A stretch of 64,000 nucleotides of DNA from Owenia fusiformis (Eukaryota > Annelida > Polychaeta > Sabellida > Oweniidae). Positions 6,090 to 64,000 of this stretch are shown here, one piece after another. The notes beneath the pieces are model-generated. The model had not been told where the DNA came from. It searched no databases and saw only the letters and a list, made by a program, of their open reading frames with translations. Position numbers and translations under genes: made by a program. The DNA lies in the NCBI GenBank assembly GCA_903813345.2, contig CAIIXF020000012.1, forward strand, positions 23,200,184 to 23,264,183. Reading direction: 5' to 3'. Position 1 is the stretch's first letter; each line of letters begins with the position of its first letter.

Positions 6090-6620
6090 AATGTGCAATC
6101 TGGATTGTTGCAATCTAACAATGTGAAAGTTAACATTGTTGCAATCTGCAATCTGGATTGTTGCAATCTGACAATGTGAAATATAACATTGCAAATTGTT
6201 GCAATCTGCAATCTGGATTGTACAATCTGTTTATACATCTCCGCTCAGAATGGCAACAATCTTAGCAATGTTGCAATGTGCAGATTGTTGCAATGTGTGC
6301 AATCTGCAATCTGGATTGTTGCAATCTAACAATGTGAAATATAACATTGCTGCAATCTGCAATCTGGATTGTACAATCTGTTTATACATCTCCTCTCAGA
6401 ATGGCAACAATCTTAGCAATGTTGCAATGTGCAGATTGTTGCAATGTGTGCAATCTGCAATCTGGATTGTTGCAATCTGTTTTATACTTCTCTCAGAATG
6501 GCAAACAATCTTAACAATGTTGCAATGTGCAGATTGTTGCAATATGGTTTATACTTTCAGAATCTAATATAACCTTAACATTGTTGCAATATGAATATTG
6601 TTGCAATGTGGATTGTGCAA
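6090..6620 (+). repeat. Left tandem array of ~109-bp unit (foldback arm)
   Basis: Four to five copies, some truncated, of a unit containing GCAATCTGCAATCTGGATTG, a TCAGAATGGC core and TTGCAATGTGCAGATTGTTG. The unit itself is rich in short inverted words (CAATCTG / CAGATTG), so it can fold locally. The same unit occurs inverted at 8.6-10.2 kb. Confidence 0.85.
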
Positions 6621-8619
6621 TGTTAATAATTAACATTATTATACAATATACACAATCTTTGTAATAGTAAACTATTTAGATGGTTACTTAATACCAAATA
6701 TAATGTGCAATATAATTTATTATGAACGTGCTGAAATATAGTTTTAATTAATTTCATTACTTTGTTTATTTTTTATTAAGAACTCTCTCTTTTGAAGTGG
6801 GAGAGTTGTATGTAGCCCCCATGCTTTGCTTCATCGTATCATATGTTGTTAATGAGATGCTGTTTCATGTGCAGTGTCTCCCCAACGTGTTATCTGCTCA
6901 TTAAGAAGAAATTAAATACTGTTCAAGATAATGAACATTAATTAACATGGCCAATGCAGAGCCAGTTGGAGTTACAGTGAAATGTAAACTTATTCAAACT
7001 TTGATTCATCCATATATCATAGGTGTTAGTTGAAATGAAGTCAATGTGAACATGTTCATATTTCTAAGTTGAAGGTTATAACATATCCAGGAAAAACAGT
7101 ATATCTTTCACGATTCCTATCATCATACAGCAGACAATTTAAGAGGCATGATGCCATTGCTGCAATAAAGACCATGAAATAAAGCAACATTTCAAAAAAT
7201 TCATGTTAACAGTTTTTGTCATGAATTACAGCTGATTCCTAAATGCTTTGAAAGCTCTGATTCAGACATTGAAATCAGTGTTTTACTTCACAGTGTCAGA
7301 TGTGGTATTCAGTGCTCAACCGGGAACACCACTTGCAACTAAGATTGTATTGTATCGCATTGTATTGTTATTATAGATGAATCATAAAAATCTCAGTCTG
7401 ATTTATTTTATTTCTTATATTGAAAATATAATAACATGGGATGCAATGTAATGATAACTTTTCCCAAACTTTTCCCAAACTGTTTGGATTTATCATGTAA
7501 TAAAATTTTGGCAAAAACATGTTATTCTGTTAATAATTTAAGATGTGAAGATTATGAAAATCTAAATATTATAAAGATATTATTCAACTTTTACTCAATT
7601 AACCTTTCTATGAAACCATGCCCCAAACTTCATAAATAGTCCAGGAGTAAACAAATGAAACAGAACAGATTATCCTAATGTTTCGGCTTGAAATTCTATA
7701 TCTCTGCTCATATGAGTATACTGGAAGATAGAATATCTATCAGCTATTTCAATGTTAGAGCTTTTTACACTTGCTCAATGCAGAGTTTTCACATTTCAAT
7801 AAGACATTTCCATTTTAAACTTTCTATTCTGCAAAGTCCTATATTTATCATTGTTATGTGATAACTAATAAATGTATCATAATTCAATCATTATGGAAAT
7901 TATGTGAACGTTTAAAATGCAAAAATTGTTCACTAAATATCAAGTGCGTCAATGAACAATATATGTACATAAAATTATATTCATTAATTTTGCGCTAACA
8001 AGATTTGCGAATGGTCTTTAAAAAAGTATCTTGTATCATTAGGAAATAAAGCATATTATTTTAGAAAATAGAAATCCTATCCGAAAAAGTTTTCAAAAGT
8101 TAATTACTTTAAACTCATCTCTAGTCTTTGATATCCTTTGAGAGGGGAATCCATTTAGGCCTATTCTATTTTCAAGATGACATCTGAATCCAAATTATTC
8201 ACTGGAAATCAAATTAGTTTCAACTTTTGAAATGTGTGTTCTAACAATGGTCATTGTCTATCAAAAAATAAAAGTGTTACCAACAATTGCCTGGTCAATT
8301 TTGATTTAACCCTTTACTGAAAGCAGGTGAGTGCACTCTGATCTGGTCAAAACTACAAATCCATCTAAAATCGATGACATCTTGTATCTCCGTCTTCAGC
8401 CTTTTGTTGTTTACAATTGTGAAAAGCTATAAGACAAAAGAGGATTATAGATTTAATAAATAAGGTCTCTCTTGGATTGAGCCTTTGGACCATCATAGAA
8501 CTCGAAACCCACAGCCATCCATTACGATACAATAACTTCCCTAGAAATACAATAGTTAAAAATACTATTAAAATAAGATAATTCTTTTGGAATATTAATA
8601 AAAGCAGTACTGTGAGTAA

Positions 8620-10170
8620 GATTGTTGGCCATTCTGAGAGAAGTATAAAACAGATTGCACAATCCAGATTGCAGATTGCACACATTGCAACAATCTGCAC
8701 ATTGCAACATTGCTAAGATTGTTGAGATTGTTGACCATTTTGAGACGAGAAGTAAAAACAGATTGCAGTTTGCACACATTGCAACAATCTGCACATTGCA
8801 ACATTGCTAACATTGTTAAGATTGTTTGCACACATTACAACAATCTGCACATTGCAACATTGCTTAGATTGTTAAGATTGTTTATTGAGATTGTTGGCCA
8901 TTCTGAGGGGAGAAGTATAAAATAGATTGTACAATCCAGATTGCAGTTTGCACACATTGCAACAATGTGCACATTGCAACATTGCTAACATTGTTAAGAT
9001 TGTTGGCCATTCTGAAAGGAGAAGTATAAAACAGATTGCACAATCCAGATTGCAGTTTGCACACATTGCAACAATCTGCACAGAAATTGCACAATCTAGA
9101 TTGCAAATTGCACACTTTGCAACAATCTGCACATTGCAACATTGCTAAGATTGTGAAGATTGTTGGCCATTCTGAGAGAAGTATAAAACAGATTGTACAA
9201 TCCAGATTGCAGTTTGCACACATTGCAACAATGTGCACATTGCAACATTGCTAACATTGTTAAGATTGTTGGTCATTCTGAAAGGAGAAGTATAAAACAG
9301 ATTGCACAATCCAGATTGCAGTTTGTGCACATTGCAACAATCTGCACATTGCAACATTGCTAACATTGTTAAGATTGTTGACCATTCTGAGGGGAGAAGT
9401 ACAAAACAGATTGTACAATCCAGATTGCAGTTTGCACACATTGCAACAATCTGCACATTGCAACATTGCTAACATTGTTAAGATTGTTGGTCATTCTGAG
9501 GGGAGAAGTACAAAACAGATTGTACAATCCAGATTGCAGTTTGCACACATTGCAACAATCTGCACATTGCAACATTGCTAACATTGTTAAGATTGTTGGT
9601 CATTCTGAGGGGAGAAGTATAAAACAGATTGCACAATCTAGATTGCAAATTGCACACTTTGCAACAATCTGCACATTGCAACATTGCTAAGATTGTGAAG
9701 ATTGTTGGCCATTCTGAGAGAAGTATAAAACAGATTGTACAATCCAGATTGCAGTTTGCACACATTGCAACAATCTGTACATTGCAACATTGCTAACATT
9801 GTTAAGATTGTTGACCATCCTGAGGGGAGAAGTATATAACAGATTGTACAATCCAGATTGCAGTTTGCACACATTGCAACAATGTGCACATTGCAACATT
9901 GCTAACATTGTTAAGATTGTTGGTCATTCTGAGAGAAGTATAAAACAGATTGTACAATCCAGATTGCAGATTGCGCACATTGCAACAATCTGCACATTGC
10001 AACATTGCTAACATTGTTAAGATTGTTGGCCATTCTGAGAGAAGTATAAAACAGATTGTACAATCCAGATTGCACACATTGCAACAATCTGCACATTGTA
10101 ACATTGAGAGAGAAGTATAGAACAGATTGCAATTCAGATTGCAGATTGTCAACAATCTTACAGAAAAAAT
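8620..10170 (-). repeat. Right tandem array of ~109-bp unit (foldback arm, inverted)
   Basis: Roughly 14 copies of the unit in opposite orientation to the 6.1-kb array. Several neighbours are spaced exactly 109 bp and others are shortened or lengthened by internal deletions. Each copy carries ATTGTTGGCCATTCTGAG, a GAGAAGTATAAAACAGATTG segment and ATCCAGATTGCAGTTTGCAC. The overlapping open frames on both strands here are translations of the repeat, not genes. Confidence 0.9.
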
Positions 10171-11162: not shown

Positions 11163-13797
11163 GGTACCTTGACAACTTTTGTACTTTTTAGCTCACATGG
11201 TGAGCTTTTGCAATCACTCACTTGTCAATCTGTCTGTCCGTCCGTCTGTCTGTCCATCCGTCCGTCCGTCTGTCCGTCAACAATAGTGGCACGTTTTAAA
11301 ACCTCTGTCGATAGGATTCCTGTTTTAAGTTATTTCTGTTCAACATCAATACAGAAAACCCCCCTATGACTCCTGGTTCAAAAGCTCGCCTATTTTCAAA
11401 ATGGCCGTCACTTTTGTCTCGCGAAATTCACTTTTAGCCCATTTCCTAGCTAACCTCTGTCGATAGGATTCCTGTTTTAAGTTATTTCTGTTCAACATCA
11501 ATACAGAAAACCCCCTATGACTCCTGGTTCAAAAGCTCGCCTATTTTCAAAATGGCCGTCACTTTTGTCTCGCGAAATTCACTTTTGGCCCATTTCCTAG
11601 CTTTACAAATAATTTCAGGTGTCCTACATTGTAAAAATCCATGTCAATGTAAAGATTAGATATATGTAATAATTTTGTTACAAAAAATCAGCGAAAAATT
11701 GTATCCGTTTTTTTATTTTCAGCCATTTTAGTTAACATTGATTTGTCTATCTGACTCGCGAAATCCACTTCCTGTCAATAACAGTGGCACGTTTTAAAAC
11801 CTCTGTGGATAGGATTCCTGTTTTAAGTTATTTCTGTTCAACATCAATTCAGAAAACTCCCCTATGACTCCTGGTTCAAAAGCTCGCCTATTTTCAAAAT
11901 GGCCGCTATTTTTGTCTCGCGAAATTCACTTTTGACCCATTTCCTAGCTTTACATATAATTTCAAGTGTCCTACATTGTAGAAATCCATTGCAAAGTAAA
12001 GAGTAGATGTATGAAATAATTTTGTTACGAAAAATCAGCGAAAAATTATATCCATTTATTTATTTTCAGCCATTTTAGTTAACATTGATTTGTCCATCTG
12101 TCTCGCAAAATTCACTTTTGGACCATTTACCTTAAACCCTCTGTCGATAGGATTCCCATTTTAAGTTATTTTTGTTCAACATCAATACAAAAAACTCTCC
12201 TATGACTCTTGGTTCAAAAGCTCGGCTATTTTCAAAATGGCCGTCACTTTTGTCTCGCGAAATTCACTTTTGACCCATTTCCTAGCTTTACAAATAATTT
12301 CAGGTGTCCTTCATTGTAAAATTCCATGTCAATGTAAAGGGTAGATATATGAAATAATTTTGTTACAAAAAATCAGCGAAAAATTGTATCCATTTTTTTA
12401 TTTTCAGCCATTTTAGTTAACATTGATTTGTCTATCTGACTCGCGAAATCCACTTTCTGTGGCACGTTTTAAAACCTCTGTCGATAGGATTCCTGTTTGA
12501 AGTTATTTCTGTTCAACATCAATTCAGAAAACTCCCCTATGACTCCTGGTTCAAAAGCTCGCCTATTTTCAAAATGGCCGCCATTTTTGTCTCGCGAAAT
12601 TCACTTTTGACCCATTTCCTAGCTTTACAAATAATTTCAAGTGTCCTACATTGTAAAAATCCATGTCAATGTAAAGAGTAGATGTATGAAATAATTTTGT
12701 TACGAAAAATCAGCGAAAAATTATATCCATTTATTTATTTTCAGCCATTTTAGTTAACATTGATTTGTCCATCTGTCTCGCAAAATCCACTTTTGGACCA
12801 TTTACCTTAAACCCTCTGTCGATAGGATTCCCATTTTAAGTTAATTTTGTTCAACATCAATACAAAAAACTCTCCTATGACTCTTGGTTCAAAAGCTCGC
12901 CTATTTTCAAAATGGTTGCCATTCTTGTTTCGCGAAATTCACTTCCATGTCAATGTAAAGAGTAGATGTATGAAATAATTTTGTTACGAAAAATCAGCGA
13001 AAAATTATATCCATTTATTTATTTTCAGCCATTTTAGTTAACATTGATTTGTCCATCTGTCTCGCAAAATCCACTTTTGGACCATTTACCTTAAACCCTC
13101 TGTCGATAGGATTCCCATTTTAAGTTAATTTTGTTCAACATCAATACAAAAAACTCTCCTATGACTCTTGGTTCAAAAGCTCGCCTATTTTCAAAATGGT
13201 TGCCATTCTTGTTTCGCGAAATTCACTTTTTGCCCATTTCCTAGCTTTACAAATAATTTCAGCTGTCCTGCATTGTAAAAAGCCATGTCACTGTAAAAGG
13301 TAGTTGTATGAAATAATTTTGTTACAAAAAATCGGCAAAATATTATATCCGTTTTTTTATTTTCAGCCATTTTAGTTAACATTGATTTGTCCATCTGTCT
13401 CGCGAAATCCTCTTTTGGACCATTTGCTTAAAACCTCTGTCAATAGGATTCCAGTTTCAAGTTATTTTTGTTCAACATCAATACAAAAAACTCCCCTATG
13501 ACTCCTGGTTCAAAAGCTTGCCTGATTTCAAAATGGTCGCCATTTTTGTCTCGCGAAATTCAATTTTGGCCCATTTCCTAGCTTTACAAATAATTTCAGG
13601 TGTCTTGCATTGCAAAAAGCCATGTCACTGTAAAGAGTAGTTGTATGAAATAATTTTGTTACAAATTATTGGCAAAAAATGATATCTGTTTTTTTTCCAG
13701 CCATTTTAATTGACTGAGAGACAGATGGCTTGAAATAATTTTGTAACAAAAAATCAGCAAAAAATGTGACCATGTGAGCCCAGTACCCACGGTACTA
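11163..13797. repeat. Tandem array of ~340-bp unit with inverted-repeat ends
   Basis: About eight full or truncated copies of a unit marked by CCTCTGTCGATAGGATTCC (near 11,303, 11,454, 11,801, 12,138, 12,475, 12,816, 13,098 and 13,434), TCAAAATGGCCG and CTCGCGAAATTCAC. Full spacings are about 336-346 bp; the first (about 152) and the 12.8-13.1 kb interval (about 282) reflect deletions. The left boundary carries AGCTCACATGGTGAGC and a TCTGTCCGTCCGTC microsatellite; the right boundary carries ACCATGTGAGCCCAGTACC, the inverse of the left. Inverted ends around an internal array suggest a non-autonomous element; the superfamily is unclear. No coding capacity. Confidence 0.8.
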
Positions 13798-42900: not shown

Positions 42901-45900
42901 TAATCAATGTAGTTTTGTGCAGAGTCACAAATTGTAGCTGCAAAAAATCCGAGCTCCATAGGAAAGTTGTACATGCATACATACATGCTGTGTATATTAG
43001 GAAAAAATTATTACATTTCACATCAGATTAGAGTTGGTTAAAATGTATTACTTGTTTTCCTCAATTTGGAAATGAAAAGAATATGAATAATTTAATTGAT
43101 AATTTAATCTTGATTAAATACTCTATAAGCAGACATATGGACAAAACATGGGTAAGTTAATGGTTAGAAGAACTAGTTAACGTTGTTTGTAACATGTGAT
43201 ATTATACAAAGTCTATAATTTTTCTCCAAAATGTTACATTGTTGTTGTTGCTTATGTTTTCAGTTGTTATGATTTTGTTTCTTTGCTTGTTTTGACACAA
43301 ATCTGAGTCATTTTATACTTAAAGGAGCACTGTGTGTAATTCTGATCATTGATGAACCTAAAAATTTTTGAATGCATAATAACTTGATCACCATCGATAG
43401 AATTTTCTAACTTTCTATTCTGAAAAGATTAAGCTTGAAAAATTTCTTGTTTCATAAGCAGCAGAAGTTTCTAAACTGAAAAACAGTACCTCAACCTCTC
43501 TCAATTTAAAAAGCAATTAATTCACTCTTTACATATTTTTCAAGCTCCAATATAATAGGAAAGAAAGTTTGTTTATTAAAAATATTTTAGGGTTGTTTAG
43601 GATGAGAATTACAGCTGTTAATCCTTTAAATTCATTTTTTTACAAAACTATTTAATGTTTAGTTGGTCATATTTGTCCCAGAACTAGATAAAATATTAAT
43701 TATAAATGAAGATTCTGTATACATGTATGCCAATACCTGAAGTTTAAAAATAATTTAAAAAGATATTCACATTAGCATAGATCTTGACCATATAAAGACT
43801 GTGGCATCAAAGGGGAATTTTCTGATTCTAGAAAATTTTGTGAATTGCGAGAAAAGAAATTCAAATGTCTTGTATGATGTTACCATGGATTCATCATAAA
43901 AGACAAATGAAATGCAGGAATCGTAATCCTGATATACGAATTCTGTCTGTGTCAGCTGGGTACTGAATTCAATATATTTTGAATGCTAGATGTGACATAA
44001 GAAGGGGGAGACGTTACGATTCATTGACTATAATTTCCATGTAACTTGAACTATTGGGAGTTCCTTTGGGATATTAGACAATATATCATGTATGATAAAT
44101 CAAAAGTATGATTATTTAAAATTTCAAAAAAGAATATTTTTGGAAATTATTGTCACTGAAGTGTTAATGCTACCACCTTGAGTTTCAACATTTTCACCAA
44201 ATCTTTGCATATTTTTAGAGAAACAGGCTTATTTCCCTGCTTTGTATGATCCTTCCTCTTATACCCTTTATAGTTAGATTGTGAAGAAAATATAAATGGT
44301 TCACTTCTAATGATCCATTTGAGACAAATATGAGCAAGATATACCATACAAAGGGAATGATATAATAATGCAAAATCCTGATATTTAGAATGAATTATAG
44401 AACTTAACCTCACTTGAACTTAAAATGGACCAATTTTAGGCTATACGTCCAGAATTTTCTTTTTATTACATTGTACATAATATGCTTTAAATTTGAATAC
44501 CACAGTTTCTCATTTACTTTGGAAATTTTTATTAGTCCTCTAGTATTCATCATTAGTCAACTTTTTTAGCCAATTAAGCAGACAGCTATTTCATTTCTGC
44601 TTTTTATTAGCTTCAATATTTTCTAGATTTACAAGTTACTAAATTATGTACTAAAAGAATGTGTACAAACATAGTAATGATATAATACATGTTGAATATT
44701 TTTTTTATTATTTTACTGGCAGATTTTATTTAAGGTTGATATTTTATGAAATCCACTTTTCAGCCAAACATGTCCTCGATAATAATGTATTTATTAGTGT
44801 AGAAAAAAATCAAAATATCATAATGAAAGTATATCATACTATATTGTTTTTTTTGTTGTTTTTTAACACTGAATAGTTCATCTACTGTGTGAACAATTAA
44901 TAAAGGCAATTCTGAGATAAATATTTTGTGTAGATGAAATTACATTTATTTACCAACATCAAAAGATACGATTAAGAATCTTGTATAATCAACTTAATAA
45001 TCACGCAAGATGGCCAAATCATTAAGAAACATGTGTATTATTTCAGGCCCTAAGAAACCTATGGGGGCACGTGGTGCAATGGCAGCATTCAAGAAGATGG
45101 ATCAGGCTACGGGAGGCGGTAACGCACCTGCAAGACCCAAGTAAGAATTTTATTATTGTTCTTAATATAAATCTTGAATTAAGTGCTGGGCTGTAGAGTA
45201 TTGGGTGGGGGAGAGAGAATTGGTGCACGATTATCATTTTTTATTATTTTTGAATTTATTATTTTCACTGTTGTTTATCTATGGCTTTTTTGTTCACCAA
45301 TTATAAGTTCGAAAATGTTATTAGTACTCATTAATATTTGACTAATCTCTGTTGTTATTGATTACATACTCTCAGATATTTTTGTAAATATATGTTTGAA
45401 GTTTATATCTGTTTTATTTAAAATGATATCTTATTGGTAAATATCCTACATGTATGTTTATGCTGTATATATGAAAATTAATAAATGAACCTTGTTGATT
45501 TACAGATACAGTGAACCTGTGCAAGTTGAACACCTTTGGTATTTCAAAAAGTGTTCCACTTACTGATGTCCACTTTATATGAAGTAAATCGCTCTTGGGA
45601 GTCTGGAAATTGTTCCACTTATGGTGGTGTTCCACTTTTCAGATTTTACTGTATGTAGGTTGTTGCAGTCCAGGAATTGCTCTTTGAATTTAGACATTTT
45701 ATCCTGAACAATAGATGGCAGAGGTGTAGATATCAAAAATAAAGACAATCTAGACAATTGAAGAGCCTACTACAAGCTGTAATTAATTGTAACACTGTTT
45801 TTTGTTGTAGTTTTAAGTGAAAAAAATGTTTTTAGCTCTTTTTAGACACGTTTTCTTCATTCTCTTAGATAGCAAGATGGCCACTGCTCAATTTGTTTCT

Positions 45901-48900
45901 ATTTTATTATAAAAAGTAACAAGGTACTTCATAGAGAGGAACTTATTGAACACCCCTATGTAATCACATAACACAATATCATATTAATGCATTGACTGGG
46001 TATCCAATCACTCAAAGTTTGATAATATGGGATAAAATATTTGATATGCTTTAAATGTTTATTTTGTCGCTTCAATGTTTCATGGAATCCTGATGTAGGA
46101 ATTGCTGTTCATGCTAATGTCATGATTTTAAGAACTGCCTAATTATTTTATTGCTTTTATCGTTGCACCTGCTTGCATACTGAGGATTCTGAGGGAACAC
46201 AATAATATCTGACCTAAATATTATCCACAACACGTGTACTAGCAAGGCCTCGTGTTACTATTTTCAAAGCTTTTTTCACAGCTTTTGGCCCTCAAATCAC
46301 CACAAAACAGCATTTTTCTTTCAATTTTTGCATCAAAAGATTTTCATTTTTTTCACCTCTAGTATATTAAGTCATGATCAGCTCAATACATGAAACCTAA
46401 TGTAATGCTCATTAGGTTAATGTGGTCTGGTTAGTATCTGGGCACAGGGTTGTGGATACCACAAATTCTGTACTGCTATAACATTCAAAGTACGGTATCA
46501 TATCAAAGGGTCAAAATTTGTATGATTTCATATTTGAAAACTTTCAAAACTAAGTTAAAATGACTGAATTTTGTATTGTGGAGTATTTACTCACTTTGAA
46601 CATATTTGGTGATAATATTGACACATTTCATTCGATAAACTGAACCCAGTGGGTGGATCCATTGGGCCCATTATCACTACAGCATATGTTTCACCTTCAC
46701 AATCAGATCTGTTGTTATTTGTACTATATAACCCACAAGGTCCAATGTCTCAGATGTTTTATAAAACCCTGATAGGAGGGTGGGGTTGCTGTTTGATTGG
46801 ATAAACTGCTGATAATGAATTCCATAAAATATGAATTTGGCTGTTTTTATTGAGGAATACATGTGAATTGTTGTTAAGCCTGCACTTAGGATATTCCTTG
46901 TGGATTGGACAGTACAAGAACCTCACCATATCATGCATACATTACGTAATTTGAACATGTCATCATTTAACCGCATGCCTAACGCATGGTTTCAGCTTTT
47001 TTAACGTCGTCAAGCAAGCTTCAAATAAACCGTTGAATTTGAATAATGTGCGGCGGAGTGCAGTAGAAATAAAGGCTGAGATTTTGAAGTTTGTCCAAGC
47101 CAACACTAAAGACTATGGGGTTAGAATCCATTTTGTTTAACCTCTAATCATTGTCATAGGTGGCAGCACTACTATTTCTTAACAGGCTTCTAGGAGTCGA
47201 AATCTTCATGCGTCTTTTCTATGGTTCAAAGTTAGCAAATATTATTCATTATTCATCAGAAATGTTCAGATTCTAAATGCTACGTTCATAATTTGATATT
47301 TGCTAATTTTGGGACACCTCGTTCCCACAATTCACTTTTCTACTTAATTTATGCACGTTGTAGTCCAGCATGCAATTTCAGACCCCAGCATGCATCCTGG
47401 GATAGCCAGACATAAGATTTCACTGTGTCATTCATTTTCTCGCCTGATTTAGTCAAGAGTTTTTGATAACAAGTAATTTTTGGCATATTTTTAATTGAAC
47501 AACATAAAAAGATTTAAGATTAAAAAAGAAAAGAAACAAAACCATAAGACCATTGTGAAATCTAGTATGTATAGAAACACATGTATTAATACTTAATACA
47601 ATAACAAATCTACATGTATTTCAATTATTTAAATAAATTCTGTATGTTGATATCTTTGATTGTAATAATGTGTGTGATAATCTTAATGATAAATTTCTTT
47701 ATTTCTAGTAGCTGTTTATAATTAATGGATATTACATTAATGGCATGTTGTTGTATATAAGTAATTATAATACTGAATGTTTTAAATAACAAATTTAAGA
47801 TCTCTTTACTATCATTTTTTACCCATAATACAAGAATAGTAAAACATGTCCATGTGAGTGTGTGATGTGTTTCTTTGAAATATTGTTTTATTTTCTATTT
47901 TGAAATGCTCAACACAAAACACAATACATTACAATGCTTTGATATTCCAGTACTTCAAAGCATTTTAACTCAACTGTTTTACTATTCATTTATCTATTTT
48001 TGCTTGTTTTACTAATTTTTTTTATATATTATCATGGGCTTTCAACTCTAGTTGAAAGCCCATGATATTATCAATTTTGAACACTGTTATATCCAAAGTG
48101 ATGTTTTCGCATGTACATGTAGGAACACTCAGTAGTGTTTGATTTTAGTTAAGTCAGTGTAGTTTTGCATCCATGCATGTAATTCCATATATTTTGTTTA
48201 TAAAGGGACATTTATTTGACTGGATCATGGCTCAAGAATTTTTCCATTCAAGTTTTTGTCTTGAGAATTCATGAGAAACGCAAAAAAATCTGGATCCATG
48301 ATTCAATTGATACATGTACTGTATAGCCCTAAGTTTAACATGTGTGAGCTTCCCTGTATATCCCATAATATGTTTAACCATGTGACCTGTCATGTGACCT
48401 ATATTGTGTTTGTCCAGTTTCCATGGCACAAGTTTGAACCGGAGTCCAAGCACAGTAAAGACTGTTATATTGGAGTGGATTCAACGCATGACATCCAGCT
48501 ATCCTGTAAGCCAAGCAACTCAAAATATAACCCTTGGGTCTCAAATATCAGAACCCATTTCTTTGCCCTTGCACCTCAAATAATTACAAACCCCTGTCTT
48601 TTACTTTGAATCTCAAATATGAAAACCCCTTTCTTTCCCCTTGCATTTGAGAAGCCATTTTATGCCCTCAAATTTTGCATCTCAATTATTAGAACCCCTT
48701 TCATTGACCATGCATTTCAAATATACGAACCCCTTTACTTGCCCTTATATCTCAAATATGAAATTCCTTTTGCCCTTGTATTTCAAATAGGAGAACCCGG
48801 AGAACCCCCTTCTTTGCCCTTGCAACTCAAATGAACTTTCAAACATCTTGAACTTTAAATATGGACACCAAGTATATAGTCAGTGCACTTTAGCTTTAGA

Positions 48901-51900
48901 AAAAACCTTTGACTGGGGCTTTGTTCAAGACAGTGTAGCTTTGAAGCTTTGCTTCATCTTTTTCTGCTTATAGCTGGAGGTATCCATGTCATTAATTCAT
49001 TTCTATCCTCCTCAATTTTAAGATGATTTACTTAATAATATTTTCCATTGTTGTCTAATATTTTATACTTAATGGTGTACTTATGTATATGTAATGGGCG
49101 CTTATTTCATTTCAATCATTCAGATGACAAAATCACCCATATGACAACTCGCTGAAATCTTAGTATGTGACAAAATCTGAGCTGTCTGTATCTGTTTGCT
49201 TGCTTGTTTGATTGCTTGTTTATTTATTTGTTTGTTTGTTTGTTTGTTTGAGGCTTGAAGTGAATAATGTAGGAATGAAAGTATTGTATTTGAAAGGGGG
49301 TGAGAGGGGTGGGGTCAAGACACCAGGATCAAAGACAATTGCTAGTATGAGATGAATATCCACATGTTCTGTCTATACTAACACAACACTACTACTTTCT
49401 TTTTCAGTTCTCTCATTCTAAAACTAAACCTCTTTTTTTACAGGCTTCCAACTGTATCTCAATCTTTCTTTCAGCTAAATCTTCTTTTCAGTTTTCTAAA
49501 TCAGATCTGATCTCTATTCTCTACTTGAGTGCATGAGTTTCGAAGCACTCTAGTGTGTTTAAGCACTATAGTGTGTTGAAGCCATCTTGTGCACAACTCC
49601 ATGACTCCAAAAATTTGCCTCTTCAAACAAATTGAAATATTGAGCAAGTAATCATCTGTGATAAACCTTTGCAATTCGCTGTATATGTATTTGAAATCAA
49701 AATCAAATGGCAAGAGAGTCATTTCAATGGGATGTGCACTAACTGGACCCTCACACACTCGCAAACTTCTCAATCTCCAATATACACTATATTTCACCTG
49801 TAAGTGTAATCCACTCTGTGTCTGTGTAGTTTCCTTGGAGCTCCTGGACCTGGAGCTGGAGGTGGTGCTGGCAGGGGGGTGAATATACAACGTAGCCCCA
49901 GTACCATAAAACAGATGTTATTGCAATGGTGCCAGAGACAGTGCAAGGACTACCCTGTATGCTACTTTCTTTATATAGCTTGCTGCCTTGCTGTGTGGTG
50001 TCTCAGTGTAGTTTCTCTACATAATTTGTTGCCTCATTTGTGTGGTGTCTCATAGTTGCCTTATAATCGCATGTACTCACAGAGCTTCTGTTTAACTCAT
50101 GTATGAAACATTGCAGCTCATCGCTTTAACACCATTATAGAACATCATTATTTTAGGCCTTTATACCATATATGGAAGGCCTTATTGATGGTTTTCTGGG
50201 TAACACCATATATGGAAAGTTATAAGGAAGATTATATGGAAGGTCATAGATCTTGTTTTTGTATAACACCCTGGAAGGTCATGGCTTTCTGTGCAAGACC
50301 AAATATAGAAAATGCAGAAATAGGCTGACTCTCAAGAAAGAAATCCTAATGAAGAATCAAGTCTTAATAGATGTCCTAATTGACATTGTCAACATATTTT
50401 CTGAACAAAAGTCACAGTCTTCTATTGGTCTCCTCGTTCATCATTGTGTCTATACAGAGGATCATGTCATACATGACATGTAGGTGCATAACATAAGGGT
50501 GGGGACATGTAGGTGCATATTATAGGAGAGGGGAATGCTGCCATTACATCGTTTTGGCTTACTGTCATTAGCTTTACATATCATAGATACATTGAACATT
50601 TGATAAGTCAAGTTGATCAGCCAGAATACTAATTCTACTTGGCCTACTTTAAGGTAGTTTCGTTTGTTCAGAACTTTAAATGAAAATGTAGTTCACTGAA
50701 TTACATCTAGAATGTTTATGAATACTTAATTAATAAACTAGGTATATTTGCACACTCTGTGCAAAACTGAAAGTTGTAAGTCATAATCATATGAAGTGAG
50801 CTATATGTACTTGAAAATAATGTGGGACTCCAATAAGGAAGTCATTCAATTTTCTGAACATACGAAACTACCTTAAGATCTGTTCAGGGAATTACCCTCC
50901 ACACAGGGTTGGGTTCATGTAAGAAGCGTGTGTATGTACATGTAGTATGCTTGGGGTTTTGTAACAGTGATGCTAAATGTAACAAGTTAATAGCTAGTGC
51001 CCTATAGGACACATCATTCCCAAAAATACAGCTCTCAGAAATAATATATTGTTCAGTGACATGAGACTAACATTAATGTATCTATTCATGTAGCTTATTG
51101 TGAAGACAGATTTTCATTAATTATATTGGTTTCCTGCTTAATTGTCTTCACTTTCTATTAGATAATTAAACCATCCCGATTCCAGTTCCAAGATTCCAAG
51201 AAAGTTGCTTTCAATCAATTTAGAGGAACTTTCACCACATAAATCATGCTTCTGGGCACCATATGATGATCATTGTGTGTATGCATATATGTATGCAAGG
51301 GTGTGTTACTTTTTGCTGTATACAACATTAAAACATATACTAGTAGCTATTTAGATGTTAAACGCTATGCATATTTTATAAATGTAGAAATTATTGCAAA
51401 TGTTGAATTTTCACTTTTGATTAACAATGAGATTGAAGTCTTAAGATAAATTACAATAAAAATAAATTTAATATTTTAAGGATTTATTTGAATAAAATAA
51501 CAGCCGAAATAAACATTGTTTTTTAGAAAATAAAAAATTTCTGTGTAAATGAAAATTCACCTCTGAGATTAATAAAAATGAATATATGCATGGAAGAGAA
51601 TGGTCGACTTGAAAAGTAGTATTACATGAGCATTAACATTGCTTTGAACTTCACATTTCAGATCGAGATTACCAACTTCAGTGGTGCCTGGTCGGATGGC
51701 AGGGCATTCTGTGCTCTCATTCATCACTTCTACCCTGATGCTTTCAACTGGGAGGAACTTGATCCCAAGAAACGTCGCTATAACTTCACACTTGCCTTTG
51801 ATACAGCAGAGTAAGTTAAATCTTGGATAACATTTTGAATCTTGGGAAATACTTCTGCTGAAAAATCTAAGGAAGGGATCATAAATAACTTTAAATGATA

Positions 51901-52618
51901 GATTTTTCATAGTTTTCTACTCATTCTAAGGGTACTTGTTACAAAATATAATTAAGCTTATGTTTATAAGCATATTTGCATGGGCGTAGCCACCCCCGAT
52001 CGAACCCCCCCCCCTCCCACCCCACCAAAAAAGAAAAAAGCAATATTGTAAAACTTGCTGAAAAAAAACATTGACAAATTATGGTTTGAAATGCTTAGAA
52101 AGCACCATATACTGTACAATGTTAATTTAAAAAAATTAACCCTTAACCCCCCTTTTTAGGGCTCACTTCACTTGCATTGATTCAAACCTTAAAATTCGCT
52201 GCACCCCTGATTCGTCTTCATGTTTCATGTGAAGTTCAATGATAATCATATGGAAGCTCATTAATGAATGAATCAGACATATTTATGGAGCTGCTGGACA
52301 AATTTTACTCACACATAAAACAATAATTAACAATGTAATTAACATTTCACTCCTAGGGGCTGGGTCAATTTAGTTAGGTCTTAACCCCCCTCCCCCTGTT
52401 GAAAGTCAAAATGTTGATTCCCTCTTGAAGTGTTCATATAAAGCTGGCATAATGTTTTCACTTGCAGGAAGCTAGCTGACATTGCTCCCCTCCTTGACGT
52501 GGAAGACATGGTGATGATGAAGAAGCCTGATTGGAAGTGTGTCTTCACCTACGTTCAGAGTTTCTACCGGAGATTCCGCAACCACGAGGAAAACGCTGAC
52601 AAACCTGCCGAGCAGTAG
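27804..52618 (+). CDS. Smoothelin-like protein with C-terminal CH domain (split gene)
   Basis: Coding exons: 27,804-27,938; 32,791-32,866; 33,527-33,636; 38,570-38,722; 39,260-39,374; 40,498-40,587; 42,391-42,603; 45,047-45,140; 49,830-49,956 (or 46,996-47,119); 51,662-51,810; 52,468-52,618. All introns are GT-AG and phases agree at every junction; total 1,413 bases, 470 residues plus stop. Order: KVKD repeats; smoothelin motif TDEEELMKI-LNKTENFDDRKKIRARLR; charged helix with EKRRQER and RRAEEEKQRK; Thr/Ser/Gly-rich linker; CH domain with NFSGAWSDGRAFCALIHHF and VFTYVQSFYRRFR. Smoothelins are actin-associated cytoskeletal proteins of contractile cells; this role is inferred from the family. 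The 5' end is uncertain: either an upstream exon (see 24,870) or an ATG at 27,777/27,783 in frame with this exon. Confidence 0.92.
27939..32790. other. Intron with degenerate CACCAAAT repeats
   Basis: 4.85 kb, AT-rich, with a C12 run near 29,462. At 30,460-30,700 a degenerate ~25-bp repeat built on CCACACCAAATATC appears about eight times. A GTGACATA-family relic lies at 32,630-32,700 and a GAGAGGTGTTC relic ending GTTTTACTGTATGTA at 32,711-32,748. No supported exon. Confidence 0.6.
32791..32866 (+). CDS. Smoothelin-like exon b: second half of smoothelin motif
   Basis: Acceptor TATTTTCAG, donor AGAG|GTAAGA, 76 bases entering at phase 0 and leaving one base. Encodes LNKTENFDDRKKIRARLR followed by VIREQAR, completing the motif begun at 27,938. 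The split falls in the middle of the conserved helix pair. Confidence 0.9.
33527..33636 (+). CDS. Smoothelin-like exon c: charged helical segment
   Basis: Acceptor AATTCCAG, donor CCAG|GTAAAC, 110 bases. The leftover G plus CT restores an Ala codon. Encodes EAEKRRQEREAASKDVV, KERQRRAEEEKQRKLREFQ: Lys/Arg/Glu-rich and probably a single long helix or coiled coil, as follows the motif in other smoothelins. Confidence 0.88.
33637..38569. other. Intron with local repeats and a hairpin
   Basis: 4.9 kb. TAATCTGATTGG (36,341-36,352) is exactly complementary to CCAATCAGATTA (36,381-36,392). At 36,850-37,085 a CTCAACAAGGGGCCTCATT word occurs three times; the 36,810-37,046 open frame translates this repeat and is not accepted as an exon. 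(TTTA)n at 37,441-37,470. Confidence 0.55.
38570..38722 (+). CDS. Smoothelin-like exon d: charged linker
   Basis: Acceptor GTTTCCAG, donor AAAAAG|GTATGC, 51 codons, phase 0 both ends. Encodes EMAAEPKKDTGIDPVARRK followed by a Lys/Glu/Ala-rich stretch ending MYAPQLDKK. Continues the helical character of the preceding exon. Confidence 0.88.
38977..39186. mobile_element. MITE of the CAGGCCCGTAGCCAGG family
   Basis: 198 bp at 38,983-39,180, from CAGGCCCATAGCCAGG to TGGCTACGGGCCTA, flanked by ATAATA on both sides (38,977-38,982 and 39,181-39,186). Internal words TTGGCCAAAAATTCTTTCAA and GGGCCAAAATTGTCAAA match the copy at 18.2 kb. It lies in the intron between 38,722 and 39,260. The open frames through it are repeat translations. 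Confidence 0.8.
39260..39374 (+). CDS. Smoothelin-like exon e: Thr-rich linker
   Basis: Acceptor GCATTTAG, donor AAAG|GTACCA, 115 bases leaving one base. Encodes VEKKLAEAKQSGETTTTEE, then TTEDGG and TKTSMTTTDK: low-complexity and Thr-rich, probably disordered and a likely phosphorylation region. Confidence 0.85.
40498..40587 (+). CDS. Smoothelin-like exon f: Thr/Ser-rich linker
   Basis: Acceptor TGGTGTAG, donor GCAG|GTGAGA, 90 bases. The leftover G plus AT gives Asp. Encodes GTTTITKKTTTVSQTSG, VGGTAYAIKKSA. Leaves one base, compatible with both the exon at 42,391 and the short candidate terminal exon at 41,442. Confidence 0.85.
40588..42390. other. Intron with TTG/TTA microsatellite and possible alternative end
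   Basis: Contains degenerate CACAACATTC-type repeats at 40,735-41,050 and a (GTT)n/(ATT)n microsatellite at 41,788-41,850. The candidate alternative terminal exon at 41,442 is described separately. Confidence 0.55.
41442..41455 (+). CDS. Possible alternative terminal exon of the smoothelin-like gene
   Basis: After a pyrimidine-rich tract and acceptor TTTTGTCAATAG, the sequence GTGGTGCCACTTAA would join the preceding exon's leftover G to read Gly-Gly-Ala-Thr-stop. An ATTAAA about 100 bases downstream could serve polyadenylation. The product would lack the CH domain. Supported only by splice signal and phase, and could be chance. Confidence 0.2.
42391..42603 (+). CDS. Smoothelin-like exon g: Ser/Gly-rich linker
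   Basis: Acceptor GTCTATAG, donor GGAG|GTGACT, 213 bases, one base in and one base out. Encodes EETAKNLANDFGKSSSPG, repeated basic/Ser motifs (TQSWSSRDG, KSKSWGGGG) and PGRGMGAIAALAG. GC content and codon use are clearly higher than the flanking introns. If the donor is skipped the frame ends after two codons (GGT GAC TAA), which would give a CH-less protein. Confidence 0.88.
42604..45046. other. Intron containing an interspersed repeat
   Basis: Apart from the GTGACATA-family copy at 42,655-42,835, the 2.4-kb intron is AT-rich with no recognisable exon. The open frames at 44,153-44,413 and 44,661-44,876 lack coding character. Confidence 0.55.
42655..42835 (+). repeat. Interspersed GTGACATA-family repeat, most complete copy
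   Basis: Starts TTATTATGTCACCACACCAAG / TGGTGACATATTGTTATG and runs through GATGTCCAGCATTTGGCAG, TGTAACAAATGGCAGGTGG and GCATGTTAATGCCTTATTG. Longer than the copies at 18,990 and 19,495 and in the same orientation. Confidence 0.7.
45047..45140 (+). CDS. Smoothelin-like exon h: Gly/Ala/Lys linker before the CH domain
   Basis: Acceptor TTATTTCAG, donor CCCAA|GTAAGA, 94 bases leaving two bases (AA). Encodes GPKKPMGARGAMAAFKKMD then QATGGGNAPARP. The leftover AA makes an Asn codon with either of the two possible next exons (AA+C at 46,996 or AA+T at 49,830). Confidence 0.87.
45506..45658. repeat. MITE-like repeat with ATACAGTRAA inverted ends
   Basis: Begins ATACAGTGAACCTGTGCAAG and ends CAGATTTTACTGTATGTAG; the ends are inverted versions of ATACAGTRAAMCT. 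Inside, GTTCCACTT appears in several copies on a ~30-60 bp scale. Resembles the relics at 13.9, 22.1 and 32.7 kb. Confidence 0.6.
46996..47119 (+). CDS. Alternative smoothelin-like exon encoding a second version of CH helix 1
   Basis: Acceptor TGGTTTCAG, donor TATGGG|GTTAGA, 124 bases (1 + 41 codons), exactly the phase of exon 49,830-49,956. Encodes FFNVVKQASNKPLNLNN then VRRSAVEIKAEILKFVQ and ANTKDYG. The ending aligns with RSPSTIKQMLLQWCQRQCKDYP of the other exon: RS at the same distance, I-K, a hydrophobic helix, and K-D-Y immediately before the shared IEITNF. The segment is richer in GC and CpG than the surrounding intron. Using both exons together would duplicate the helix and break the phase (the first leaves 0 bases and the second needs two), so they should be mutually exclusive. 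No transcript evidence is available here. Confidence 0.75.
48030..48067. repeat. 38-bp near-perfect palindrome
   Basis: TATCATGGGCTTTCAACT (48,030-48,047) and AGTTGAAAGCCCATGATA (48,050-48,067) are exact complements with a 2-base spacer. It lies in the intron between the two alternative CH exons. Its CATGGGCTTTCA core is shared with the 83-bp array at 25.7 kb and with 2,813-2,825. Confidence 0.9.
48530..48835. repeat. Degenerate tandem repeat (TCTCAAATATGARAACCCCTTTC)
   Basis: Six or seven diverged copies of a ~45-60 bp unit built around TCTCAAATATGAAAACCCC followed by TTTCTTTGCCCTTGCA. The open frames at 48,271-48,609 and 48,619-48,834 run through it and are not supported as exons. Confidence 0.7.
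49830..49956 (+). CDS. Smoothelin-like exon i: Gly-rich lead and CH helix 1
   Basis: Acceptor GTCTGTGTAG, donor TACCCT|GTATGC, 127 bases (1 + 42 codons). Encodes FLGAPGPGAGGGAGRGVN then IQRSPSTIKQMLLQWCQRQ and CKDYP. The IKQMLLxWCxxx-Y pattern is the usual first helix of smoothelin-type CH domains. The donor leads in phase 0 to IEITNF at 51,662. Alternative partner: 46,996-47,119. Confidence 0.92.
49957..51661. other. Intron within the CH domain
   Basis: 1.7 kb. Three related AC(A)CCATATATGGAAGG-type words at 50,165-50,290 form a small degenerate repeat. No further CH-like exon was found by eye. Confidence 0.5.
51662..51810 (+). CDS. Smoothelin-like exon j: CH domain core
   Basis: Acceptor CACATTTCAG, donor GCAGA|GTAAGT, 149 bases leaving two. 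Encodes IEITNFSGAWSDGRAFCALI, HHFYPDAFNWEELDPKKRRY and NFTLAFDTA. The NFSxxWSDGxAFCALIHxFxPDAF string is the signature of the CH domain and includes its most conserved Trp and Asp-Gly. Confidence 0.96.
51975..52215. repeat. C-rich repeat fragment with GGGCGTAGCCA start
   Basis: Begins CATGGGCGTAGCCACCCCCG with a C11 run and ends near CTGCACCCCTGATTCG. It resembles one end of the widespread invertebrate GTAGCCA elements but does not align well with the three MITE copies described here. Lies in the last intron. Confidence 0.35.
52468..52618 (+). CDS. Smoothelin-like last coding exon: CH C-terminal helices
   Basis: Acceptor TTCACTTGCAG; GA plus G restores Glu. Encodes KLADIAPLLDVEDMVMMKKP, DWKCVFTYVQSFYRRFRNHE and ENADKPAEQ, then TAG at 52,616-52,618. 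LLDVEDMV and the FTYVQSFY helix are typical of smoothelin and MICAL-type CH domains. The tail after the domain is only about a dozen residues. Confidence 0.95.
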
Positions 52619-54950: not shown

Positions 54951-55392
54951 ATGGTAGTACTAATATAGGTACTCCTGTGGTAGTACTAATATAGGTACTC
55001 CTGTGGTAGTACTAATATAGGTACTCCTGTGGTAGTACTAATATAGGTACTCCTGTGGTAGTACTTATATAGGTACTCCTGTGGTAGTACTAATATAGGT
55101 ACTCCTGTGGTAGTACTAATATAGGTACTCCTGTGGTAGTACTAATATAGGTACTCCTGTGGTAGTACTAATATAGGTACTCCTGTGGTAGTACTAATAT
55201 AGGTACTCCTGTGGTAGTACTAATATAGGTACTCCTGTGGTAGTACTAATATAGGTACTCCTGTGGTAGTACTAATATAGGTACTCCTGTGGTAGTACTA
55301 ATATAGGTACTCCTGTGGTAGTACTAATATAGGTACTCCTGTGGTAGTACTAATATAGGTACTCCTGTGGTAGTACTGATATAGGTACTCCT
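54951..55392 (+). repeat. 26-bp minisatellite, 17 copies
   Basis: Unit GTGGTAGTACTAATATAGG + TACTCCT repeated over 442 bp, exactly 17 x 26, with only single-base differences (the first base, an A-to-T near 55,070 and an A-to-G near 55,378). The unit contains GTAC twice and AGTACT, a palindrome. The homogeneity points to recent expansion or gene conversion. Confidence 0.95.
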
Positions 55393-55906
55393 GATTAACA
55401 ATAATAATGTGTGCAATAATGTCTCCTTAATGTACATCCATTTTAATCTCTTAACCATTTAGTGTAACATTTTAGTATACTGTTTTTATTTTTAGATTGT
55501 AATTGCATTGCTGATTCTATACAAAGACATTGTTTTGATAGGCTTGGACATATCTTGTTGGAAGTTATGGTTTGAAAATGCACTAAATGACGGCTTTCAT
55601 GTGTAATTCGTCGATATGTCAAAAGTTTCACACTCTATCTAGTCAATAACTGTAAAATTAGTAGACTGTATGAATTTAGTTAAAAAGCTTTAAATTGTTT
55701 TAGATTTCTATACTCCACAGCACCTCTATTGTTGTCACAGGAATTATGAATTGAAAATTTTGATGAAAAGTGATTTAATATTTTACAAATTTCCTGATAA
55801 CCGACACTTTTTGAATCCCCTGTAATATTATTTATTGTGAAAGTTATAATGAAAAGAGTGCAAAAAGAGAAATCCTGACATCAATTGATGACAGTTTGAT
55901 GTCAAC

Positions 55907-60510: not shown

Positions 60511-60582
60511 TATGTATCATACTAAGCACTTGATCCATGATCTTGGTCATCTGGTTCGTTGGTTGTTTGGTTCGTTGGATGG

Positions 60583-61539
60583 AAATAATGAAACATGGCT
60601 TCATGGTACATTTATACATTAAGGGAAATAAAGGAAGTCATCATTTAGTGTATTTCTTAGAAAAAATGTTTGCCAAACATACATGTGCCAACAATGGGAT
60701 TAGAATCCCAACAATTGAAAAATGTGTCATTGTGGAATAACCGTACTGAACCAGAGAGCAAAATCATCAAATGATAGAACTGATTATGTGTTACAGTACC
60801 TTTAACAAGATGGTATGTAGATATAAATGCTGCAGATAGGTAGCACAAATTGTAGATTCTCTGTGGTTTTCCTTTTGTGTTTCTTTTTGTTCTCTCCAAG
60901 CCAAGAGGTATGTAGATACAAATGCTGCAGATAGGTAGCACAAATTGTAGATTCTCAGTGGTTTTCCCTTTGTGGTTCTTTTTGTTCTCTCCAAGGCAAG
61001 AAGACTGCACCTGAAAGTACATTTAAGGAAAAGATCAGCGATGGTTCAATTAAAAAGAAAGAAAAACCCTAAACTAAGCCCACAATTTTAACATGAAATT
61101 GAAAACCCAAAAGAAAAGACCCTTCAATCTACAACTGTAGCTAAAATAAACGAAAAGGACTTCAGACCTTCAAAATTTAGATCTGGAGTAGTACTTGAAG
61201 TGAACTTTAAAATTGAATCATTACTGAGTAAGTATTGGTCAACCAAATACAATACAATACAAAACAAAACAATACAATACATAGCAATACAAAACTTTAC
61301 AATACAATACAATACTAAGCACTAGATCCATGATCTTGGTCATCTGGTTCGTTGGTTGTCTGGTTCATTGGTTGTTTGGTTCGTTGGGTGGAGTGTTGGT
61401 TAGATGGTTGATTAATTAGTTAATTGGTTGGTTAGTTTTAACCTATTGGGTGGTCTGGTGGTTGTCTGGTTGGTTAGTTGGTTGGTTAGTAAGTAAGTTG
61501 GTTGGTTGGTTAGAGTAATCCTATTGGGTCATTGGTTGG
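60583..61539. repeat. First copy of a ~2.46-kb tandem duplication unit (left part)
   Basis: Matches 63,041-64,000 almost base for base, with an offset of 2,458 at the left end and 2,462 at the right. Includes an inner 2 x ~94-bp tandem (60,812-61,001), an AATACAATAC microsatellite near 61,245-61,315 and a TTGG-rich tract at 61,340-61,560. The words around AAGCACTTGATCCATGATC at 60,525 recur at 61,316 and 63,783, so there is also a smaller ~790-bp periodicity. Confidence 0.9.
60800..61010 (-). CDS. Exon-like segment inside the duplicated unit (function unknown)
   Basis: On the minus strand, acceptor ATGTACTTTCAG and donor GTTAAAG|GTACTG bound 211 bases open in one frame (VQSSCLGENKKNHKGK at its start). 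The body is two ~94-bp tandem units translated in different frames, and the second genomic copy (63,260-63,468) has lost one T, shifting the frame. It could be a decayed multi-copy exon or simply a repeat with splice-like edges. No domain recognised. Confidence 0.2.
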
Positions 61540-62705: not shown

Positions 62706-63040
62706 CTGAAAGATACAAGATAAGAAAATGAAAAATACAAGGATGCAACTTGGTCGAGTCACTTCCAATACAAGCGGAGGAGGGAATGCCAAGACATTCC
62801 TTTCATTGACTCTCGAAAATTTGTCATAGCCTTGTACCCCTCCCGGCTCAAGATTTATATCATCAAGTCAACTAACTGCTTGGGCAGATGTAACTCTGTA
62901 GGAAGAAGGGAATAGTGGAGTATATGTATCTTTAAGACTAAATTGAAATGTGGTGTTTCCTATTTCAAAGCAGTTGCCATCTTGACTTGGCCCAATGTGA
63001 AGTAGGAATGATTCAGGCAACTATCACAGACCATATGTGA

Positions 63041-64000
63041 AAATAATGAAACATGGCTTCGTGGTACATTTGTACATTAAGGGAAATCAAGGCAGTCATC
63101 ATTTAGTGTATTTCTTAGAAAAAATGTTTGCCAAACATACATGTGCCAACAATGGGATTGGAATCACAACAATTGAAAAATGTGTCATTGTGGAATAACC
63201 ATACTGAACCAGAGAGCAATCATCAAATGATAGAACTGATTATGTGTTACAGTACCTTTAACAAGATGGTATGTAGATATAAATGCTGCAGATAGGTAGC
63301 ACAAATTGTAGATTCTCTGTGGTTTTCCTTTTGTGTTTCTTTTTGTTCTATCCAAGCCAAGAGGTATGTAGATACAAATGCTGCAGATAGGTAGCACAAA
63401 TTGTAGATTCTCAGTGGTTTCCCTTTGTGGTTCTTTTTGTTCTCTCCAAGGCAAGAAGACTGCACCTGAAAGTACATTTAAGGAAAGGATCAGCGATGGT
63501 TCAATTAAAAAGAAAGAAAACCCCTAAACTAAGCCCACAATTTTAACATGAAATTTAAAACCCAAAAGAAAAGACCCTTCAATCTACAACTGTAGCTAAA
63601 ATGAACGAAAAAGACTTCAGACCTTCAAAATTTAGATCTGGAGTAGTACTTGAAGTGAACTTTAAAATTGAATCATTACTGAGTAAGTATTGGTCAACGA
63701 AATACAATACAATACAAAACAAAACAATACAATACAAAGCAATACAAAACTATACAATACAATACAATACAATACAATACTAAGCACTAGATCCATGATC
63801 TTGGTCATCTGGTTCGTTGGTTGTCTGGTTCATTGGTTGTTTGGTTCGTTGGGTGGAGTGTTGGTTAGATGGTTGATTAATTAGTTAATTGGTTGGTTAG
63901 TTTTAACCTATTGGGTGGTCTGGTGGTTGTCTGGTTGGTTAGTTAGTTGGTTAGTAAGTAAGTTGGTTGGTTAGATTAAGCCTATTGGGTCATTGGTTGG
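63041..64000. repeat. Second copy of the ~2.46-kb duplication unit (runs off the window)
   Basis: Near-identical to 60,583-61,539, including the 2 x ~94-bp tandem (63,268-63,460), the AATACAATAC microsatellite (63,703-63,780, longer than in copy 1) and the TTGG tract. It reaches the window edge, so more copies may follow. Confidence 0.9.

Follow-up and report, generated by a model that had tools for sequence, protein, structure and literature searches.

The window analysed here is a stretch of 64,000 nucleotides from the annelid Owenia fusiformis (assembly GCA_903813345.2, contig CAIIXF020000012.1, positions 23,200,184 to 23,264,183), and its + strand carries the 3′ end of a smoothelin-family gene, made up of an upstream exon (U), a 6.5-kb interval and two downstream exons (D and E), with the stop codon after the CH domain (Table 1). 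Within the interval lie three exons (A, B and C) that appear to encode alternative versions of helix I of this CH domain and are set in introns of 1.3 to 1.9 kb. An earlier sequence-only reading had proposed two such exons, A and C, and placed both correctly to the base, with GT-AG borders; it overlooked B, so that the copies number three, and the nearly equal length that it reported holds for A and C but not for B. As it had also stated for A and C, which have aligned ends running into IEITNF, the copies share an entry phase, one base of each completing the codon begun by the last two bases of exon U, and all three leave in phase 0.

Table 1. Exons at the 3′ end of the smoothelin-family gene (positions within the window).
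Feature	Position	Strand	Length (nt)	Encoded sequence	Splice sites	Remarks
Exon U	45047..45140	+	94	PKKPMGARGAMAAFKKMDQATGGGNAPARP	donor gtaagaat	5′ of cluster; final two bases AA belong to a split codon
Helix-I exon A	46996..47119	+	124 (3n+1)	FFNVVKQASNKPLNLNNVRRSAVEIKAEILKFVQANTKDYG	donor gttagaat	
Helix-I exon B	48418..48505	+	88 (3n+1)	FHGTSLNRSPSTVKTVILEWIQRMTSSYP	acceptor ...gtttgtccag; donor gtaagcca	
Helix-I exon C	49830..49956	+	127 (3n+1)	FLGAPGPGAGGGAGRGVNIQRSPSTIKQMLLQWCQRQCKDYP	donor gtatgcta	nearest to vertebrate SMTN helix
Exon D	51662..51810	+	149	IEITNFSGAWSDGRAFCALIHHFYPDAFNWEELDPKKRRYNFTLAFDTA		next CH part; counterpart of vertebrate 152-nt exon (helices II-IV)
Exon E	52468..52618	+	151 to stop			last coding exon; final CH part

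The cluster appears to stand alone in the window, where neither a profile scan nor tblastn revealed a fourth helix-I copy, and tblastn with the exons revealed neither a second CH copy nor a second copy of exon E. Exon A is open over 41 codons and has splice sites in the right phase. Shorter in-phase acceptors are also present in A (47059), B (48433, 48445 and 48451) and C (49875, 49896 and 49902), with 6 to 11 pyrimidines in 18 nt, compared with 11 to 13 at the main sites; the exception is 48433, which with 11 pyrimidines equals the main site of A.

Each of the three copies improved the fit of the encoded protein to the CH domain. Exons D and E alone scored 68.8 bits against the Pfam CH family, and the score rose to 78.4, 82.7 and 85.6 bits on adding A, B or C, corresponding to gains of 9.6, 13.9 and 16.8 bits, respectively. 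Among proteins of the PDB, the best solved relatives of all three forms were SMTNL1 (2jv9) and SMTN (2d87), with E values of 9e-41 and 5e-40 for form C (next 2e-28), 4e-40 and 2e-37 for form B (next 2e-24), and 3e-37 and 1e-35 for form A (next 7e-22), and both surpassed an Entamoeba alpha-actinin by many orders of magnitude. Two features place the gene in the smoothelin family: a lone type-2 CH domain at the C-terminus, most similar to those of SMTN/SMTNL1, and the structure of its CH-coding 3′ exons, which measure 88/124/127, 149 and 151 nt compared with 118, 152 and 151 nt in mouse. These results bear out the proposal that helix I of a smoothelin CH domain is encoded by duplicated exons of matching phase. 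With regard to an N-terminal smoothelin domain, the Pfam matches of five upstream or flanking open reading frames (ORFs), taken singly, included no smoothelin family. An Rfam search returned 0 matches, and scanning viral contigs with exon D produced 13 pattern matches and no relative.

To locate helix-I copies by similarity to proteins from outside the window, we built a profile of 16 helix-I residues from 8 type-2 CH domains (3 retrieved by search and 5 further ones) and scanned both strands of the 64 kb. C scored highest (33.4 bits), ahead of B (20.9) and A (10.8). All three places combine a donor one codon past the helix with one or more acceptors in phase; the fourth-best place (9.5) had no donor. 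A profile of the 3 retrieved sequences alone gave the same leaders (C 35.8, B 21.0, A 13.3) and a fourth place close to A (12.7), again without a donor. Scores the size of that of A are not rare: order-2 Markov resamples yielded 52 matches of at least 10.8 in 60 windows (both strands), and 44 of 1500 resampled introns held a place of at least 10.7. The score of A alone is therefore unconvincing, being common by chance, and it is position, phase and splice sites that carry the case. When the splice layout was also required, under a donor rule set after the exons had been seen (the initial scan accepted distances of 0 to 3 codons, and every copy turned out to have 1), none of the 60 windows and none of the 1500 introns held such a place, compared with three in the real intron. 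The copies also found one another within the window by tblastn (C-B, E = 1.7e-7; C-A, 0.004; A-B, about 0.3), and of 66 aligned bases 29 to 38 are different between copies, with no similarity between the flanking introns past matches of 11-12 nt within 600 nt of the exons, which argues against a copy produced by assembly. We accordingly give almost no credence to chance open frames or an assembly duplication, despite the frequency with which resampled introns reach the helix score of A.

The reading frame allows one copy at a time. Joining U in silico to every combination of A, B and C, followed by D and E, we found that single inclusion reached the normal stop with the CH domain intact in all three forms, while none of the five other combinations kept the frame. 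Joins of A+B, A+C, B+C and A+B+C shifted the frame and met stops that precede the D/E junction by 72, 210, 210 and 223 nt, respectively. As a general rule, stops lying farther than 50-55 nt upstream of the last junction mark a message for nonsense-mediated decay; all four multi-copy messages exceed 55 nt and are thus predicted decay targets. Skipping all three copies (45141-51661) also shifts the frame and places the stop in exon E, giving a CH-less protein from a message that should escape decay. This arithmetic supports the view that protein-making messages would use one copy at a time, and frame shift with decay would in principle suffice, so that exclusivity would need no separate lock. 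The mutual exclusivity put forward for A and C therefore gains ground from the frame, only single inclusion leaving an intact CH domain, but with three copies present the choice becomes three-way and not two-way.

The same stop positions are open to another use. With the stops of all four multi-inclusion messages beyond the 55-nt limit and the skip-all stop in the last exon, the locus could switch among productive, decayed and CH-less forms, in which case the copies would not be strictly exclusive, and double inclusion and skipping would be deliberate outputs that set the smoothelin level. Any set of 3n+1 exons yields equal arithmetic, however, and the proposal presupposes real production of such transcripts, so we consider it quite improbable. 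We find it scarcely credible that the copies are separate start or end forms, for instance with A or B read from an internal promoter, instead of one splice choice: the introns of the cluster are roomy enough for promoters, and vertebrate SMTN has alternative promoters elsewhere in the gene (PMC10643981), but each copy possesses an in-phase acceptor that continues the frame from U, a feature for which an alternative first exon would have no use.

We compared the copies over their last 22 or so codons, the part that can be aligned. B and C are identical at 12 of 22 residues, of which 9, among them the five residues of the RSPST segment, are encoded by different codons; A and C are identical at 9 of 22, and the codon differs at 6 of these. 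Both pairs are saturated at silent sites, and none of 5000 random substitution sets retained as many residues for either A-C or B-C. The lack of shared intron flanks indicates that the copies are old, or that the flanks have fully diverged. In simulations of neutral drift, an A-like exon with splice sites arose from C in 4 of 40000 runs and from B in 15 of 40000, and a B-like exon arose from C in 0 of 40000; under this model, A is unlikely to be a relic that has drifted since the duplication. A is the most diverged copy and B is intermediate. C may be an old constrained copy, with A and B a younger pair in which A has changed fast or is weakly constrained; this reading of age and selection is not firm, because 22 codons are too few.

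Taking these observations together, we favour, with a probability of about 0.72, a tandem cluster of three helix-I exons, used one per transcript, for the one CH domain at the C-terminus of an animal smoothelin. Exon U would be spliced to one of A, B or C, and that one to D and then E; messages with two or three copies would be removed by nonsense-mediated decay, and the choice might be set by tissue or stage. The swap would retain the hydrophobic core and alter the outward-facing side of helix I, together with the residues that immediately precede the helix.

Several observations weigh against this reading. The case is built on sequence, and its evolutionary part draws on only about 22 alignable codons. 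Of the 8 residues common to A and B, only 2 have a changed codon, and synonymous divergence (dS, 0.56) does not exceed nonsynonymous divergence (dN, 0.69; NG86); random substitution sets retained as many residues in 665 and 829 of 5000 cases. Without a silent excess, this pair gives no sign that A has been under selection after parting from B. The donor of A (gttaga) is off consensus. A and B lie 1298 nt apart and B and C 1324 nt, a spacing that puts steric exclusion out of the question, and competing pairing between docking and selector RNA was not established, since shuffled selectors matched the energy seen in 26, 4, 25 and 32 of 60 cases for the four layouts searched; the one suggestive layout, with selectors upstream of each exon and a dock near 50505, was that at 4 of 60, which is not significant over four tests.

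Part of this evidence would also suit a locus in which C alone works, or C and B, and A has recently fallen out of use and is decaying. A has the lowest profile score (10.8), the non-consensus donor and no silent excess relative to B. However, it also retains 41 open codons, in-phase splice sites and a fully hydrophobic helix core, and drift since the duplication seldom yields such an exon (in 40000 runs each, 4 times when starting from C and 15 times from B), a result that speaks to long-standing drift, a recent loss lying outside the reach of the simulations. We regard the loss of A as unlikely, and continue with three working copies as the preferred explanation.

With respect to splicing control, weak acceptors were considered as a mark of regulation and rejected, the 20 nt before A, B and C holding 11, 13 and 13 pyrimidines compared with 9, 14 and 12 for U, D and E. 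A survey of six motifs in seven regions, uncorrected, yielded two counts that serve as leads only: C has six PTB-like pyrimidine-rich words in the 500 nt on its 5′ side, against a window mean of 1.97 per kb, and A has four GCATG (Rbfox-like) words no more than 500 nt away, against 0.67 per kb, in pairs at 46973-46984 and 47368-47388. A pyrimidine-rich stretch with PTB-like words at 49390-49525 (+), 300-440 nt 5′ of C, contains several acceptor-like ...ttttacag / tttcag sites and is possibly a regulatory element or a set of decoy acceptors.

An alignment of the three helices with those of SMTN and SMTNL1 showed what the swap would exchange. The L, L, W, C and Y of these proteins correspond to I/I/L, L/L/L, F/W/W, V/I/C and Y/Y/Y in A/B/C, so that hydrophobic character is kept at the core positions, as had been anticipated, while the remaining helix positions vary. 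The WC pair of C indeed has no counterpart in A, which reads FV at that place, and the segment before the helix is RSPST in B and C and RSAVE in A. In tandem CH domains, actin-binding site 3 is formed by helix A′ of CH2 and the linker before it (PMC8329775). For SMTNL1, the tropomyosin-binding surface is described as including the CH domain and the disordered region preceding it, upstream phosphorylation alters the binding of both tropomyosin and calmodulin, and apo-calmodulin is reported to bind a C-terminal IQ motif and not helix I (PMC5359911). With actin-binding site 3 formed by the linker and helix A′, a tuned thin-filament contact would be the likeliest consequence, and with apo-calmodulin held by the IQ motif, a direct effect there is less likely than one on the actin- or tropomyosin-facing surface. 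We therefore infer that the swap would tune thin-filament contact, possibly its phosphorylation control too, and would not directly affect the calmodulin binding also suggested in the sequence-only reading.

In Dscam-type and muscle-gene clusters, adjacent homologous exons of the same phase each complete one structural element, and the frame is kept by single inclusion only. The cluster of A, B and C shares this layout and frame rule; unlike in those systems, its exclusivity would follow from the frame, without steric spacing or proven RNA pairing. In ACTN4, an alpha-actinin, alternative exon 8 in the actin-binding domain provides a splice choice that alters part of CH2, which differs from the present case in gene, in domain part and in having two exons.

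Vertebrate SMTN is the closer comparison, being of the same family, with a single C-terminal type-2 CH domain, versions made by splicing within one gene, and 3′ exons of 118/152/151 nt matching the 88-127/149/151 nt seen here. According to a 2023 survey of vertebrate smoothelins, the 118-nt exon of mouse SMTN encodes helix I, the 152-nt exon helices II-IV, and alternative last exons helices IV-VI, which are varied at exon 20/21 by a cassette exon with its own stop; loops I-III are described as fixed, and the survey reports no other CH domain made variable by alternative exons (PMC10643981). By contrast, in the Owenia gene it is helix I that varies, through three internal exons, and a second last exon was not found in the window. 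Among the literature matches listed, none named alternative helix-I exons of a CH domain, and the literature searched gave no match for smoothelin with exon duplication, subscription journals lying mostly outside both searches. Smoothelin-like proteins do occur in invertebrate muscle, one being reported as enriched in scallop catch muscle (PMC5963113). A CH domain on its own is considered not enough to bind actin (PMC10643981), which makes the role of helix I in a single CH domain a live question; if the cluster is what we propose, exchanging helix I among three versions while the rest of the domain stays constant would amount to a natural experiment on that role.

More tentatively, and with considerable doubt, we can envisage the cluster as a three-position thin-filament switch, in which C would be ancestral, B intermediate, and A a rapidly changed copy without WC and RSPST, providing CH domains that are motif-bearing (B and C) or motif-free (A), with multi-copy messages decayed and skipping leading to a CH-less form. 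If so, the variable end of the CH domain would have moved between lineages, being helix I here and helices IV-VI in vertebrates.

Elsewhere in the window, an ORF on the − strand (1-327) runs off the window edge and matches the Death domain weakly (Pfam E 0.0016; 19 bits, below the cut-off of 22.6 bits). Upstream of the gene's 3′ end lie large tandem arrays at 8617-10106 and 11286-13708, with periods of ~109 bp and ~337 bp, and an inverted copy related to the first of them at 6255-6531. Beyond the stop codon, a 26-bp minisatellite of 17 copies, 99% alike, occupies 54952-55393, perhaps in the 3′ untranslated region, and a ~960-bp direct repeat, 96% identical, lies at 60580-61539 and 63038-64000, its copies 2.46 kb apart and the second reaching the window end.

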